DNA from: Candidatus Sumerlaeota bacterium
GTDB taxonomy: Bacteria; CG03; SLGR01
Direction: 5' to 3'
Length of the DNA stretch: 5,043 bases
Assembly (NCBI GenBank): GCA_007136585.1
Contig: SLGR01000207.1
Location: 1 to 5,043, forward strand
The notes beneath the pieces are model-generated. The model was given only the letters and a program-made list of their open reading frames with translations, had not been told where the DNA came from and ran no database searches. Positions 512 through 5,043 of this stretch are shown here, piece by piece. Positions within the stretch are counted from its first letter, which is position 1, and every line of letters begins with the position of its first letter. A program made the position numbers and the translations under genes.

Positions 512-2137
512 TTACTTTCCTTCCATCATACCCGATACATCCTCATCCGGATCGGATATCAGCCGGATGGCGAACCTTTCCGAAAAAGCCTTTCCCACAC
601 CGGGTGAGAGGAACCCGGGGAGGGTGGGTCCCAAACGTATATTCCTAAACCCCAGGTGGATCAGCGCAAGGAGCACCGCAACGGCCTTCTGCTCGTACCA
701 GGCTATATCCAGTGAGAGCGGGAGCCCGTTTACATCCTCAAGGCCCAGTGCCTCTTTCAGTTTTAAGGCGGTGACGCCCAGGGAATATGAATCGTTGCAC
801 TGCCCCGCGTCAATGACCCTGGGTATCCCCCCGGCCTCGCCCAGGCCAAGTTTGTTATACCGGTATTTGGCGCACCCCGCCGTAAGTATCAGCGTATCGG
901 ACGGGAGTTTTTCCGCAACCCTGCTGTAGTACTCCCTTGAGGGGTGCCTGCCGTCACACCCGGCCATTACTATCATACGGCTTATATCACCCGCTTTAAC
1001 CGCGGCTATGATATCCCCGGCAGATTCCTCAAGACGCTTCCTGGCGAACCCGCAGGTGAGTTCCCCCTCTTCCAGGGGAACCGGGGGTTCGGATTCCGCC
1101 GCCATCTCTATGACCCGGGAAAAATCCTTCGCCCCGCTCTCATTAGAGGGTATATGCTCTATACCGGGGTACCCGACCTCGTTTGCGGTGAATATTCTCT
1201 CCCTGTAGGAGTCCTTCACGGGTATCAGGCAGTTGGTTGTAAGTACAACCGGGCCGCGGAATGACTCAAACTCGGCCCCCTGGCGCCACCAGGAGCTGCC
1301 GTAATTTCCCGCAAGATGAGTGTACTTCCTGAGCTCCGGGTAGGCGTTTGCCGGGAGCATCTCCCCGTGGGTGTATACGTCAATACCCCGCCCGCGGCTC
1401 TGTTTCAGTATCTCCTCCAGGTCCCTCAGGTCGTGGCCCGAGACAAGTATACCCGGGTTTGAACGCGGTTTGAGCGGGACCTGAACCGGCTCCGGGTCGC
1501 CGTAAGTCTCTGTATTTGCCCTGTCAAGGAGCTCCATAGCGGTGGCGGCCGCGGACCCCGCCTCCAGAAGAAGCTCCGTAAGCTCCTCCGCGGGGAGATC
1601 CTTTCTCAGGGCCGCAAGCCCCTCGCGCATAAAATCCAGAACATCCCGGCTGTAATACCCCAGGTGAGCCGCGTGCTCGGAGTAAGCCGCTATACCTTTA
1701 ATACCGTAGAGAAGAAATGATTTAAGTGAGCGTACATCCTCGTTATCGCTCAGGCTGAGAATCCCGACCCCGCTGGCTTTTTCGTTAAGCTCCTCCGCGG
1801 TTTCCCCTTTCCATACGGCGGCCTCTTCCGTAAACCCCTCGCACGAAGCCTCCCCTATACCGTCTCTCAGGGAGATACCCTCGGTTATAAGGGAGGTTAT
1901 CCGCTCGCTGCTGAAGTTGACATTGGTTATGGTCGCAAAAAGAGCCCGGTATACGAAACGCCCCAGGGGCCTGTCGAACTTCTCTCCGCACTTCTCCGCC
2001 CGGAGGGCTATCCCGGAGAGTATGTATATGAGAAGGTCCTGGAGGTTTGCCGTCTCCGCGTCCTTCCCGCATACTCCTCTCATCGTGCACCCCGAGTTAT
2101 TGACCGTTTCCTGGCACTGGTAGCAGAACATTTTCAC
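512..2137 (-). CDS. hcp: Hybrid cluster protein (Hcp), class I
   Basis: Cytoplasmic Fe-S/oxo enzyme of 541 aa, normal full length for class I Hcp. The family was first described as hydroxylamine reductase; it is now linked to reduction of NO to N2O and to protein S-nitrosylation in nitrosative stress. The N-terminal cysteines C5, C8, C17 and C23 (C-x2-C-x8-C-x5-C) give the class I [4Fe-4S] proximal cluster. All expected hybrid-cluster ligands are visible: H235 (SGHDL), E259 (HGEM), C303 (TTNCLIP), C394 (MAGCDGRH, the persulfide cysteine position), C422 (TAGCAKYR), C447 (GQCNDS), and E482 and K484 (WYEQKA). The gene is therefore expected to be active. The start is GTG at 2137, giving MKMFCYQC; AGGAGA lies 6 nt before it, a better fit than the ATG two codons on. 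The GTG overlaps the TGA of the upstream Fe-S protein gene, indicating translational coupling and a shared redox job. No Hcr-like NADH oxidoreductase gene is present. Confidence 0.97.
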   Translation of the reverse strand: MKMFCYQCQETVNNSGCTMRGVCGKDAETANLQDLLIYILSGIALRAEKCGEKFDRPLGRFVYRALFATITNVNFSSERITSLITEGISLRDGIGEASCEGFTEEAAVWKGETAEELNEKASGVGILSLSDNEDVRSLKSFLLYGIKGIAAYSEHAAHLGYYSRDVLDFMREGLAALRKDLPAEELTELLLEAGSAAATAMELLDRANTETYGDPEPVQVPLKPRSNPGILVSGHDLRDLEEILKQSRGRGIDVYTHGEMLPANAYPELRKYTHLAGNYGSSWWRQGAEFESFRGPVVLTTNCLIPVKDSYRERIFTANEVGYPGIEHIPSNESGAKDFSRVIEMAAESEPPVPLEEGELTCGFARKRLEESAGDIIAAVKAGDISRMIVMAGCDGRHPSREYYSRVAEKLPSDTLILTAGCAKYRYNKLGLGEAGGIPRVIDAGQCNDSYSLGVTALKLKEALGLEDVNGLPLSLDIAWYEQKAVAVLLALIHLGFRNIRLGPTLPGFLSPGVGKAFSERFAIRLISDPDEDVSGMMEGK

Positions 2138-2961
2138 AGTATCTCTCCTTTCAGCGATATTACTATCTCTTTCGCCTTAATATCATCCCGCCCGGCGCGG
2201 CGCAGAGCCTCTTCGGCTATAGTAAACGCGCCGCGGCAGCAGGGAACCTGCATCCTTAAAACCGTTACAGACCTTACGTTATTCTCCCGTATTATCGCGG
2301 CAAGCTTATCCGCGTACTCCTCGTAAGAGTCATCCAGCTTGGGGCAGAATACCACAACCGGCCGGGACCGTAGAAACCTGGAGTGAAAATCCGCCGCGGC
2401 AAAGGGGACGCAGTCGGCAGATACAAGAAGATCGCTCTCCCTGAAGCATTCCGCCGACGGGTTTAGAAGCTTAAGCTGAAGAGGCCACTGAATCAGTTCG
2501 GAACGGGAGCCGGCGGCGGATGGTTCCGCCCGGGACTCCTCTCCGCTTCTTAGGTCAGCGGAAGCCATACCCGGACAGACCCCTGCGGAGCAGGCGGATT
2601 TTTCTCCGGGTTCCGGGATATCCCGGCCGGTCTCCCTTAAGTACTCAATCGCCTCCTGAAGGTACTTCTCCTGCCCGTGCTCCCTGAGATGATCAAGGTG
2701 GGCCTTCACGGTACTCTCCCCGGCCTTTACAATATTCTCCATAACCCGGCGCTCGTCGTAAGGCTCCGCCTCCCTCTCCTCTGTCTCGATAGCCCCTTCG
2801 GGGCAGGAGCCCAGGCAGGCGCCGAGCCCGTCGCAGAAGAGGTCGCTTACAAGCCGGGCCTTACCGTCAATTATCTGTATGGCCCCCTCCGGGCAGTCAG
2901 GGACGCAGAGCCCGCACCCTGTGCATTTTTCTTCGTCTATCCGTATTATTTTTCTTTTCAT
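2134..2961 (-). CDS. Ferredoxin-like Fe-S protein, likely electron partner of Hcp
   Basis: Protein of 275 aa with an N-terminal ferredoxin domain and a C-terminal domain with conserved cysteines. It resembles the 4Fe-4S proteins often found beside hcp in anaerobes. The first motif is complete: C13, C16, C19 and C23 (CTGCGLCVPDCPEGA). The second reads C43, C49 and C53 (CDGLGACLGSCPEGA), with leucine at 46 where a bacterial 2[4Fe-4S] ferredoxin has its second cysteine. A linker (about 60-155) contains CSAGVC (124-129). The C-terminal domain has SADCVPFA (C184), FCPKLDD (C206) and VPCCRG (C241, C242), which may bind metal or take part in thiol chemistry. The start at ATG 2961 is chosen because GGAGGG lies 9 nt upstream and MKRKIIRIDEEKC is a typical ferredoxin start. 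The frame stays open to an ATG at 3183, but that would overlap the cyclase gene and add a 74-residue piece unlike any known domain. It probably feeds electrons to Hcp; this is inferred from context. Confidence 0.88.
   Translation of the reverse strand: MKRKIIRIDEEKCTGCGLCVPDCPEGAIQIIDGKARLVSDLFCDGLGACLGSCPEGAIETEEREAEPYDERRVMENIVKAGESTVKAHLDHLREHGQEKYLQEAIEYLRETGRDIPEPGEKSACSAGVCPGMASADLRSGEESRAEPSAAGSRSELIQWPLQLKLLNPSAECFRESDLLVSADCVPFAAADFHSRFLRSRPVVVFCPKLDDSYEEYADKLAAIIRENNVRSVTVLRMQVPCCRGAFTIAEEALRRAGRDDIKAKEIVISLKGEIL
2144..2149 (-). promoter_or_regulatory. Ribosome binding site deciding the hcp GTG start
   Basis: AGGAGA on the minus strand lies 6 nt before GTG at 2137 but 12 nt before the alternative ATG at 2131. 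The spacing favours GTG. The site sits within the end of the upstream Fe-S protein gene. Confidence 0.7.
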
Positions 2962-2970
2962 TTTTAAATA

Positions 2971-2976
2971 CCCTCC
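2971..2976 (-). promoter_or_regulatory. Ribosome binding site deciding the Fe-S protein start
   Basis: GGAGGG on the minus strand, 9 nt before the ATG at 2961. It supports this start over the in-frame ATG at 3183, inside the cyclase gene. Confidence 0.75.
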
Positions 2977-3045
2977 AATACATTTACAGAGACCGTCGGT
3001 ACGGGTTTCCGGGTTTGTTCTGAGGGCAGGGAAGAACCCCTCGGA

Positions 3046-3060
3046 GCAGCCAAAGGCTGC
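3046..3060 (-). other. Small hairpin GCAGCC-3-GGCTGC in the 142-bp gap inside the cluster
   Basis: Perfect 6-bp stem with a 3-nt loop in the noncoding gap between the cyclase stop (3104) and the Fe-S protein start (2961). No T run follows on the minus strand, so it is not a standard terminator. It could be a processing or attenuation point that sets different levels for the regulatory and enzymatic halves of the cluster, or it may be chance. I see no convincing promoter in this gap. Confidence 0.3.
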
Positions 3061-3103
3061 GAGAATGAGGAAAACCGTTCCGGCGGGGGCCCTCCAAGCA
3101 CAC

Positions 3104-3979
3104 TCAGCCTCTCCTCTTTTTCCCGGTATATAGAAGCCTGTCAACACGCTCAAGGAGCCTCTCCGGGGTATCGCTCTTTTCAATTACCGAGACCCCCGCC
3201 GAGACCGAGACCCCCGCTCTTCCCCCGGGGCAGGGAACGCTTGTATTTTTTATGAGGTTCCTGAGTTTTTCCGAGGTCTTCTCCAGGGAAGAGAGGTCAG
3301 CCCCGGGTATGATAACCATAAACTCGTCGCCTCCCCACCTTCCCGCCACATCAGAGGTCCGCAGGTTCTTTTCCAGTGTCCCGGATACGGCCTGAAGAAG
3401 CCTGTCCCCCGCAGCGTGCCCCCAGGTATCGTTTACGGATTTAAACCCGTCAAGGTCCAGGAAAATAACCCCGGCGGAGGATGAGTAGCGCCCGGCCTCG
3501 CTTATCCTTAAGGAAAGGTTCTCTTCCAGGAACCTCCTGTTATAAAGACCGGTAAGGGGGTCCCGGAAGGCCTGGTCCCTCAGCTCCTCGATCTCCCCCC
3601 CGTCCCCGGAAGATGCCTCCGTAAAGACCTGCACCGTACCGTAAACCTCGCCTGCGGACGTGATAAGAGGGAACCCCCTTAACCTGACCGGAACCCTGTA
3701 CCCTTTTTTATGGCGGATATACCCAAACCTTTCGCACTCCCGGCCCCCGGCGGACGAGCGGACAGGGCAATCCGATGAACACATGGAGGTTCCTCCAGAG
3801 TCTATATGCATAAGGATACCCTCGCCGCACCTCACCCCCGTCACCTCGGAAGGTTCAAACCCGGTTATCGCCACGGCGGAGCGGTTCCAGAAAACTATCC
3901 GCCCCCCGGAATCCGTAAGATAGGCCCCCTCAAGAAGGCCCTTAAGTATTAATATGGCCGTTTTTAACCTGTCATCCAT
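3104..3979 (-). CDS. PAS-GGDEF diguanylate cyclase with cysteine-containing PAS domain
   Basis: Soluble protein of 291 aa with no signal peptide or membrane segment; it would make c-di-GMP from two GTP in the cytoplasm. An N-terminal PAS domain (about 8-120) starts with GAYLTDSGGRIVFWNRSA. The GGDEF domain (about 132-287) begins with the typical DPLTGLYNRR (140-149), has the metal-site region FLDLDGFKSVND (173-184) and an intact GGDEF at 216-220, so it should be active. RTSD (207-210), five residues before GGDEF, is a canonical RxxD inhibitory site, implying product feedback. The PAS part holds C51, C67 and C71 in the pattern CGEGILMHID...C-x3-CP. Similar cysteine-containing PAS domains occur in other sensor cyclases; their ligand is unknown to me. 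The gene overlaps the Rrf2 gene by 8 bp, so it should be expressed with it. The domain after GGDEF is short, ending at KKRRG. No EAL domain is present. Confidence 0.93.
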   Translation of the reverse strand: MDDRLKTAILILKGLLEGAYLTDSGGRIVFWNRSAVAITGFEPSEVTGVRCGEGILMHIDSGGTSMCSSDCPVRSSAGGRECERFGYIRHKKGYRVPVRLRGFPLITSAGEVYGTVQVFTEASSGDGGEIEELRDQAFRDPLTGLYNRRFLEENLSLRISEAGRYSSSAGVIFLDLDGFKSVNDTWGHAAGDRLLQAVSGTLEKNLRTSDVAGRWGGDEFMVIIPGADLSSLEKTSEKLRNLIKNTSVPCPGGRAGVSVSAGVSVIEKSDTPERLLERVDRLLYTGKKRRG

Positions 3980-4376
3980 CGGATTCCTCCATAAGCAGGG
4001 CCAGGGTTATACTCTCAAAATCCCGCTTTACCTTCTCCCGGGTCCTGATAAGCCGTTTCCTTAAGGGACACCGTCCGGTGTTTTTGCATATCTTTTTCCT
4101 GAAAACGCACCCTGAAAGTTTCATCTCCCCCTGGAAAAGCTCCGCCAGTTCAGCAAGGCTTATTGTATCGGGGTCCCTGATAAGCCGGACCCCGCCCCGG
4201 GGCCCTTCCCGGGTCTCAATATATCCGGCCTCCCTGAGACGCCCCAGTATCCTCCTCAGGAACCCGTAAGGGATATCTGCCTGCCGGGAGATAACCCCGG
4301 CGCTCTTATAGGTATCACCGGCAGCGCTTATAAGGGCCCTGACGGCGTAATCGGTCTCTCTTGTAAGAAGGCGCAT
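3972..4376 (-). CDS. Rrf2-family transcription regulator, probable Fe-S/NO sensor (NsrR/IscR type)
   Basis: Protein of 134 aa, usual Rrf2 size. It begins with the family signature MRLLTRETDYAVRALISAA, followed by a winged helix-turn-helix: ISRQADIPYGFLRRILGRL (29-47) is the recognition region and GYIETREGPRGGVRL (51-65) the wing. Three cysteines, C90, C97 and C103 (C-x6-C-x5-C), lie where NsrR, IscR and RirA bind an Fe-S cluster, so a cluster-bound sensor of NO, iron or redox state is likely. Gene order with hcp favours an NsrR-like job; this is inference. The start is certain from the family signature although no Shine-Dalgarno sequence precedes it. A perfect palindrome over its own promoter indicates autoregulation and control of the whole cluster. 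The stop overlaps the cyclase start. I give no gene symbol, since NsrR and IscR types cannot be told apart here. Confidence 0.93.
   Translation of the reverse strand: MRLLTRETDYAVRALISAAGDTYKSAGVISRQADIPYGFLRRILGRLREAGYIETREGPRGGVRLIRDPDTISLAELAELFQGEMKLSGCVFRKKICKNTGRCPLRKRLIRTREKVKRDFESITLALLMEESDG
3986..3990 (-). promoter_or_regulatory. Ribosome binding site of the diguanylate cyclase gene
   Basis: GGAGG on the minus strand, 6 nt before the ATG at 3979 and inside the last codons of the Rrf2 gene. It fixes the start and shows that the overlapping pair is translated from one mRNA. Confidence 0.75.
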
Positions 4377-4399
4377 AATGATACTATTTTAGTATCATT
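4377..4399. promoter_or_regulatory. Perfect 10-3-10 palindromic operator before the Rrf2 gene
   Basis: Arms AATGATACTA (4377-4386) and TAGTATCATT (4390-4399) are exact reverse complements around TTT. The 23-bp size fits a dimeric Rrf2 protein, whose known sites (NsrR, IscR type) are of similar length. The element touches the start codon and covers the -10 box, so a bound repressor would block transcription. The most likely ligand is the Rrf2 protein encoded right beside it. Confidence 0.75.
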
Positions 4400-4415
4400 T
4401 ATATAGATATGTCAA
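4386..4415 (-). promoter_or_regulatory. Sigma70-type promoter of the Rrf2-cyclase-ferredoxin-hcp cluster
   Basis: On the minus strand TTGACA (4415-4410) is followed after 18 bp by TAAAAT (4391-4386), one mismatch from consensus. The -10 box lies at the centre of the palindrome. The start would fall near 4379, about 3 nt before the ATG at 4376, so the mRNA would be leaderless or nearly so, in line with the missing Shine-Dalgarno sequence. A start from an AT-rich TATTAT further upstream is possible, but it has no good -35 box. Confidence 0.65.
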
Positions 4416-4516: not shown

Positions 4517-5043
4517 TTAATTAACTTGGTTCAGCCCCCCGGGTAAAGCGTTATAAACTATACTCAGAGGATCCCTATAATATATCCCGTCCAGGAGTTT
4601 TTCCTCGAATAGACGGCAACCGTCCCGGGGCACATAACTGCGCATAGAACCAATACTCAGTGCTCCATAACCACCACCGCCGCCACGTCTGTAATTTCTG
4701 TGAGCCCACCAATCAGACTCGGTTTCATTTTTGGTTCGTTTCCAGTCAGATCCATCGGCAACATATTCCCGGGATACGCCCACCTCAAATCCGTAATGCA
4801 GCGGGATACCTTTACTGCAGTACCCTAACCAGAAAATTTCCTCCGTATTCTCCGTTCTCTTAACCTGATTACCCTCAGAATCGTACTCAAAACTCCTCTC
4901 CATATTCTTTAACACAGTTACATCCCTTTTACGTCCGAAGGATTCAAATATCTGAAGTTCATACGATTCTGATGTCAGCTTAAATTCACCGCTTCCGTCG
5001 GCTTCAAAGACCTGAGTGTACCCTTTATTTCTTTCGCTCCTTA
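4517..5043 (-). CDS. Unrecognised protein, C-terminal part (5' end outside window)
   Basis: The reading frame is open from the window edge to a TAA at 4517, giving about 174 residues. A GTG at 4915 and an ATG at 4903 exist inside but have no Shine-Dalgarno sequence. The residues before them (for example GYTQVFEADGSGEFKL) continue the same beta-rich style, so the gene most likely starts outside the window. I do not recognise the family. The protein is polar, with many Glu, Asp, Arg, Tyr and Trp residues, a run of five glycines, and one stretch, FEYDSEGNQVKRT, that recalls a single YD/RHS repeat but is too little to call. There are two cysteines and no membrane segment in this part. It ends with NALPGGLNQVN. 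Its base composition is more AT-rich than the hcp cluster, and 140 bp separate it from the Rrf2 gene. It is probably not part of that operon and may be a surface or accessory protein. Confidence 0.6.
   Translation of the reverse strand, partial: RSERNKGYTQVFEADGSGEFKLTSESYELQIFESFGRKRDVTVLKNMERSFEYDSEGNQVKRTENTEEIFWLGYCSKGIPLHYGFEVGVSREYVADGSDWKRTKNETESDWWAHRNYRRGGGGGYGALSIGSMRSYVPRDGCRLFEEKLLDGIYYRDPLSIVYNALPGGLNQVN

Follow-up and report, generated by a model that had tools for sequence, protein, structure and literature searches.

A lineage-specific PAS-GGDEF diguanylate cyclase gene in a predicted Rrf2-controlled frdX-hcp operon of a Candidatus Sumerlaeota bacterium, with a copy of a dispersed structured element at the junction

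The stretch of DNA analyzed here (the window; 5,043 nucleotides, GenBank contig SLGR01000207.1 of assembly GCA_007136585.1) is the entire contig C231 of a fragmented draft genome (G000; 1.88 Mb in 257 contigs) of a Candidatus Sumerlaeota bacterium, and the gene neighborhood can therefore be read only within the window. It carries four genes, all on the minus strand, which code, in that order, for an Rrf2-family regulator (rrf2), a predicted PAS-GGDEF diguanylate cyclase for cyclic di-GMP (c-di-GMP) synthesis, an iron-sulfur (Fe-S) protein of the FrdX kind, and the hybrid cluster protein, Hcp. The first two genes overlap by 8 bp (positions 3972 to 3979) and the last two by 4 bp (2134 to 2137), and a gap of 142 bp (2962 to 3103) lies between the cyclase gene and that of the Fe-S protein. 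An earlier note on this DNA had suggested from this arrangement that a response to nitric oxide (NO) or redox stress also changes lifestyle by way of c-di-GMP; its open reading frames (ORFs), strands, overlaps, and gap length proved exact to the base. The features are the following:

4410 to 4415, minus strand: -35 hexamer TTGACA of the rrf2 promoter (promoter scan)
4386 to 4391, minus strand: -10 hexamer TAAAAT, within the palindrome (promoter scan)
4377 to 4399, no strand: predicted Rrf2 operator, a palindrome over the -10 hexamer that touches the rrf2 ATG (palindrome and its conservation)
3972 to 4376, minus strand: rrf2, Rrf2-family regulator, 134 aa (PF02082)
3104 to 3979, minus strand: predicted PAS-GGDEF diguanylate cyclase, 291 aa (Pfam, NCBIfam, ORF and composition analysis)
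3626 to 3943, minus strand: PAS domain of the cyclase with Cys51, Cys67, and Cys71 (Pfam, alignment)
3113 to 3571, minus strand: GGDEF domain of the cyclase (Pfam, alignment)
2956 to 3106, minus strand: window copy of a dispersed structured element (genome repeat comparison, folding)
2134 to 2961, minus strand: frdX-like gene for a ferredoxin-domain Fe-S protein, 275 aa, start ATG at 2961 and stop at 2134 (Pfam, alignment)
512 to 2137, minus strand: hcp, class I hybrid cluster protein, 541 aa, GTG start (Pfam, NCBIfam, structure alignment)

The regulator was recovered as a member of the Rrf2 family (PF02082; E = 6.5e-26) with Asp9 and three cysteines, Cys90, Cys97, and Cys103, in the spacing C-x6-C-x5-C. 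Its closest relative in the Protein Data Bank is NsrR (5n07), with which the Asp and the cysteines align, the Cys spacing being slightly different. No NCBIfam Rrf2 equivalog scored above its cut-off (SufR type, 52.0 bits with a cut-off of 110.65; IscR, 49.6 with 207.55; NsrR, 42.7 with 182), so that its earlier designation as NsrR type holds as a resemblance in nearest structure and ligand residues and not as an assignment. The product of the second gene combines a PAS part (PAS_9; E = 3.2e-07) with a GGDEF domain (PF00990; E = 1.6e-43, 148.7 bits), in which the GGDEF motif (residues 216 to 220), the RxxD inhibitory site (207 to 210), and the conserved catalytic-domain residues D175, N183, and D184 are present; from the intact GGDEF and RxxD motifs, the cyclase looks active. 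In its PAS part, C51, C67, and C71 (C-x15-C-x3-CP) are invariant in 20 sequences, and H58 is found in most of them. They possibly form a metal, Fe-S, or redox site; the Cys loop of the PAS domain (59 to 77) is modeled at a predicted local distance difference test (pLDDT) score of <50, and a metal site is therefore only a guess. PAS domains with an invariant C..C-x3-CP signature, mostly with a His in between, are widespread in cyclases of ~300 aa (loci L164 to L189).

Hcp (PF03063; E = 6.9e-156) exceeds the cut-offs of two equivalogs about twofold (PRK05290, 735.5 bits with a cut-off of 367; TIGR01703, 658.7 with 360.8) and aligns end to end with the class I structure 8cnr, ungapped at the N-terminal cysteines C5-x2-C8-x8-C17-x5-C23 (C-x2-C-x8-C-x5-C). 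Class II is defined by a 4-residue insertion in this spacing (PMC10210160); the spacing without that insertion, together with the equivalog scores, therefore places the protein in class I. In the Fe-S protein (Fer4; E = 4.8e-11), the first 4Fe-4S motif is canonical; the second site reads C-x5-C-x3-CP and is noncanonical, because of which the earlier description as a two-cluster protein is sound for the first site and uncertain for the second. We call the protein FrdX-like on the basis of its ferredoxin domain and its place beside hcp, the ferredoxin-like protein that accompanies Hcp in delta-proteobacteria and clostridia having been named frdX (PMC1274295); the earlier note had likewise regarded such partners as known. 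The C-terminal domain of the FrdX family has four invariant cysteines (C184, C206, C241, and C242).

A promoter scan recovered a sigma-70-like promoter in front of rrf2 (-35 and -10 hexamers matching at 11 of 12 positions). The perfect palindrome AATGATACTA-AAA-TAGTATCATT (10-nucleotide arms, 100% complementary) contains the -10 box and abuts the rrf2 start codon, and it was found once in the genome with up to 3 mismatches allowed. Its general form, AATGATACTA-N3-TAGTATCATT, stands directly before rrf2 in four members of the phylum, namely, the window genome, G001 (as AATGTTACTAATATAGTAACAGT), G012 (as ATGATACTAAAATAGTGCCAT, where the same rrf2 begins at the end of contig C47), and G014 (as ATGATACTAAAATAGTAGCAT), the last three of which also have TTGACA upstream of rrf2. 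In other phyla, it precedes rrf2-frdX in G353 and G223 (which belong to one genus), G102, and G252. The Rrf2 proteins of this subfamily have in common TDYA, close to the N terminus, and the C-x6-C-x5-C spacing. Comparison of these sequences argues strongly that the subfamily regulates its own expression, and we regard the group as a candidate regulon type for Hcp that we did not meet in the literature. Loci at which the subfamily and its operator lie ahead of rrf2-frdX or rrf2-hcp are L226, L227, L239, L251, L049, L051, and L284. A wider regulon was considered and rejected, the operator being found once per genome at ≤2 to 3 mismatches and additional 2-mismatch matches being at control level. 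The region of the rrf2 start (4374 to 4391) is devoid of a Shine-Dalgarno site, and the ATG lies ~10 bases past the -10 box; the mRNA is therefore probably leaderless, and G001, G012, and G014 share this arrangement.

We then compared gene neighborhoods in 16 members of the phylum (the window genome included, relatives of its genus and species lying outside the set) and at the loci found with a FrdX profile generated from the window protein and five relatives. The profile had matches in 83 of 386 genomes, an outcome that depends on the genome sample. At 69 FrdX loci, an Rrf2 gene lies ≤150 bp upstream in 20 (some of them of other Rrf2 types), hcp lies ≤1.5 kb downstream in 25, and both are present in 10, as counted with profiles of our own that are poor at detecting distant Rrf2 proteins; as a ferredoxin-domain protein kept beside hcp, the window protein fits the description of FrdX. 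Within the phylum, hcp is present in 5 of the 16 members, the window genome being one. In two others, G012 and G014, the order is rrf2-frdX-hcp, only a few bases separating rrf2 from frdX, and there is no cyclase; G001 has rrf2-hcp and a separate rrf2-frdX, again with no cyclase; and in G005, hcp has a broken frdX and neighbors of another kind, likewise with no cyclase. Judged from gene order, Rrf2-frdX-hcp is an existing and conserved kind of cluster across phyla. With the module conserved and the operator conserved in place, control of frdX-hcp by Rrf2 is therefore well supported, in agreement with the earlier proposal for this cluster. In G005, hcp adjoins genes for an HD-domain-like protein, a frdX fragment, and a hemerythrin-like protein (L048, 2509 to 5439), and its frdX partner appears, from its sequence, to be decaying.

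The cyclase behaves differently from the rest of the module. The full order Rrf2/PAS-GGDEF/FrdX/Hcp was found in the window genome only, among both the 16 phylum members and the 69 FrdX neighborhoods, and in the 68 other FrdX neighborhoods, regulator and enzyme are in no case separated by a GGDEF gene. The order, whose conservation the earlier note had named as a check of its proposal, is not conserved in related genomes (4 of 4 other hcp-bearing phylum members lack a cyclase in the cluster, as do the 68 loci), and its accompanying remark that a cyclase is not a standard part of such a cluster was borne out. By this comparison, the conserved module does not include the diguanylate cyclase, the gene for which was probably inserted in this lineage. 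Its relatives in the named genomes scanned are GGDEF proteins at 30 to 40% identity, and stand-alone PAS-GGDEF homologs align over the whole architecture at 30 to 42%; no hcp, frdX, or rrf2 was found near 80 of the former or at 29 loci recovered with this type of PAS domain (inspected for 1.5 kb on each side). Within the phylum, no other gene aligns along the full cyclase, except that for a 353-aa PAS protein of G004 (27 to 32%). The nearest partial parallel is a same-strand run in G003 of genes for a GGDEF protein, an ATP-pyrophosphatase-like protein, Rrf2, and FrdX (L223, 5116 to 8344); we did not count it as an instance of the conserved order, since both the Rrf2 and the cyclase are of other types and the ATP-pyrophosphatase-like gene lies in between.

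These data bear on an alternative to which we give some weight, without holding it to be probable, in which the cyclase gene came to lie between rrf2 and frdX as a bystander that takes no part in responding to NO or redox changes, being tolerated because translation continues through the junction and a repeat element gives frdX its own ribosome-binding site. The restriction of the arrangement to one genome, the relatives unlinked to hcp, frdX, or rrf2, and the presence of a dispersed repeat exactly at the cyclase/frdX junction, a mark of rearrangement, are all as it would have them. What it leaves unaccounted for is that the catalytic, inhibitory, and PAS motifs are all intact and that the gene, with its neat 8-bp overlap, good Shine-Dalgarno site, and host-like composition, gives the impression of being settled and expressed. 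It begins inside rrf2, with a GGAGG Shine-Dalgarno site within the end of the latter, and its GC content and that at third codon positions (GC3) match those of the neighbors (GC3 of 0.66 vs 0.62 to 0.68), so that it is not a raw recent import. The scan found no promoter-like site between rrf2 and the cyclase gene, and from this layout the two are very probably cotranscribed.

The 142-bp gap between the cyclase and frdX genes has the length given earlier, but its sequence is not unique: it belongs to a dispersed element of ~145 to 180 bp that is present in the genome in ~26 full and several partial copies (loci L002 to L008 and L028 to L047), including several tandem pairs. In the window copy, which stops at the start codon of frdX and provides its Shine-Dalgarno site (GGAGGG), the cyclase gene's 3′ end stands in place of the left end. 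Copies are oriented as the gene behind them, and most lie between genes of the same strand. Of the 25 copies examined, 22 have a start codon in one and the same register, 11 bases past the start of a conserved GGTATT-type motif, behind a Shine-Dalgarno site borne by the element (one of the 22, at L003, and one copy at L043 run off the end of the contig or locus, where the gene behind is unmeasurable); 3 of the fixed-register copies are followed not by a long ORF but by a linker of the GTGAAACGTCCATGAG type and a second copy. By a looser test (a start codon 5 to 17 bases on that opens an ORF of ≥80 codons), 16 of the 25 copies qualify, vs 7% of random positions. The genes behind the copies are unrelated (purQ type, tsaD, aroK, aroA, pdxA, mltG, RNase R, a trpG-type amidotransferase, rsmG, 5-formyltetrahydrofolate cyclo-ligase, an outer membrane efflux protein, radical SAM proteins, and a solute-binding protein).

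The element folds into a long stem with two side hairpins in which 90% of the cells pair, and 42 cells are changed on both sides vs 15 expected from shuffles; the folding z-scores are -1.45 for the window copy, -4.07 for the L032 copy, and -0.82 for the L037 copy, the window copy thus folding less well than that at L032. As many full copies start with RTGAAACGTCCATGAG or a close variant, RTGAAA is found at both ends of the element. No known RNA was recovered in the gap, Rfam giving nothing either at the gathering threshold or at E values up to 1. As a coding repeat, the element has no clear coding signature (variation of 0.25/0.21/0.27 by codon position). An open frame of ~55 codons runs through nearly all copies (L002, L005, L007, L008, and L028 to L040); its TGA overlaps the start of the next gene (ATGA), and its own start overlaps a 4-codon frame, VKRP*. 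Diverged relatives occur in two genomes of the same order, three in G007 (L154, 1501 to 1623; L157, 1501 to 1632; L159, 1501 to 1631) and one in G005 (L155, 706 to 840), directly before the starts of eutN/ccmL-type, etfB-like, rpiB-like, and thiE-like genes; these weak relatives largely retain the core ATTCTCRC..CCGAGG.

The element is central to a second alternative, which we consider unlikely, in which transcription is split into an autoregulated rrf2-cyclase unit and a separate frdX-hcp unit, the element serving as terminator, processing site, or promoter. Such a division would suit the presence of a structured element in the gap, and one copy (L028) lies at a divergent gene start and therefore behind a promoter of its own. 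It sits poorly with the promoter scan, in which the gap has neither a promoter-like site on the minus strand nor a T-run terminator, in line with the earlier expectation of no separate constitutive promoter there, and with the location of most copies between genes of one strand.

On these grounds we lean, with restrained confidence, toward an Rrf2-autorepressed frdX-hcp operon, predicted to serve in defense against NO or nitrosative stress, that has been linked to c-di-GMP by the lineage-specific insertion of a PAS-GGDEF gene. The sequence offers genes on the same strand, the overlap, a predicted operator, one recognized promoter (that of rrf2), and intact motifs. In the mechanism that we propose, Rrf2 would hold an Fe-S cluster and repress its own promoter, and NO or loss of the cluster would relieve the repression. 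Rrf2, the cyclase, and, probably, through the gap element, FrdX and Hcp would then be made together; the cyclase would raise c-di-GMP while Hcp reduces NO, with FrdX as a candidate electron donor, and feedback through the RxxD site would set an upper limit to c-di-GMP. With three invariant cysteines, the PAS domain may also act as a second checkpoint for redox state or metal, in which case the cyclase would be both induced by the signal and gated by it. Attachment is the usual guess for the output of c-di-GMP, and the genome also encodes other GGDEF proteins and a PilZ domain.

NO sensing by this Rrf2 is inferred from its NsrR relative and its partner genes. It is doubtful, in our estimation, that the protein senses iron, O2, cysteine, or general redox state instead, which would link c-di-GMP to Fe-S status and not to NO: the failure of every NCBIfam Rrf2 equivalog to pass its cut-off would fit such a signal, but the nearest solved relative is NsrR, and the conserved partners are frdX and hcp, whose known inducer in anaerobes is NO (PMC1274295, PMC12915319). 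In Clostridium difficile, NO induces frdX and hcp ~200-fold under the control of HcpR, and knockdown of either gene results in NO sensitivity (PMC12915319).

Several observations weigh against the favored link between the operon and c-di-GMP. The other four hcp-bearing members of the phylum are without a cyclase in the cluster, and cyclase relatives elsewhere are not near hcp, frdX, or rrf2, so that the insertion could be one of chance under no selection. The evidence comes from a single contig of a single draft genome; the Rrf2 score is far under the NsrR cut-off (42.7 vs 182 bits); the element in the gap could stop transcription, start it anew, or cause the mRNA to be processed; and the PAS metal site is a guess from a structure model with a loop pLDDT of <50. 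The wiring of an NO response to c-di-GMP, as first proposed, thus survives as a plausible switch in this organism, one genome, in which a cyclase that is likely active is transcribed from the rrf2 promoter, and not as a conserved arrangement.

Parts of this arrangement have precedents. Control of hcp by Rrf2 proteins (NsrR, in some proteobacteria), as the earlier note had stated, or by HcpR is known (PMC1274295), and so is a route from NO to c-di-GMP through H-NOX beside a cyclase (PMC5588039). Like the HcpR-controlled frdX-hcp pair of clostridia and delta-proteobacteria, the window has Hcp and a FrdX-type partner adjoining their own regulator, with a role, predicted for the window, in NO defense (PMC1274295, PMC12915319); unlike there, the regulator belongs to Rrf2 (PF02082) and not to CRP/FNR, a cyclase gene lies inside the cluster, and the palindrome is of a type other than the HcpR site wTGTGAn6TCACAw (PMC1274295), which sets it apart from HcpR control. 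With NsrR, the regulator shares the family, the N-terminal Asp and the three cysteines that make up the ligand set, and hcp as a target; it differs in its score below the model cut-off, in the operator AATGATACTA-N3-TAGTATCATT, and in that NO sensing is here proposed by analogy. H-NOX/cyclase pairs, such as Pden_3719-3720 of Paracoccus denitrificans, also couple an NO input to c-di-GMP synthesis by overlapping genes (PMC5588039), but there the sensor acts on the cyclase protein, whereas here the proposed coupling would be transcriptional, via Rrf2, perhaps with an input through the Cys-bearing PAS; no H-NOX is encoded within the window. Stand-alone PAS-GGDEF cyclases of ~300 aa (C..H..C-x3-CP) share the whole architecture and the invariant cysteines, but those recovered lie elsewhere in their genomes and not beside rrf2 or hcp.

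Among the papers searched, we found none joining Rrf2, hcp, and a cyclase, nor one with a cyclase inside an Rrf2-frdX-hcp operon; the papers with both Hcp and cyclase terms were, by their titles and abstracts, genome surveys or unrelated. If true, the proposed link would connect nitrosative or Fe-S stress in an anaerobe to c-di-GMP at the level of transcription, unlike the protein routes of the H-NOX type. Independently of the cyclase, the comparison defines an Rrf2 subfamily with a conserved operator over frdX-hcp in several phyla, and it strengthens the case for FrdX as the partner of class I Hcp, for which the electron donor is stated as unknown (PMC10210160). The element fixed at start codons is an oddity of interest for mobile DNA and translation and may be more surprising than the cyclase insertion. 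We suggest only tentatively that it represents a previously undescribed family of structured elements of ~180 bp that insert at start codons with their own Shine-Dalgarno site and a relay of overlapping frames (VKRP*, ~55 codons, ATGA), spread between cotranscribed genes without breaking translation, and, with the inserted cyclase gene, rewired an Rrf2/NO-defense operon to c-di-GMP.

Outside the cluster, the ORFs on the minus strand at 4517 to 5041 and 3 to 476 had no Pfam or NCBIfam match; the latter has a strong promoter-like site at 476 to 447.

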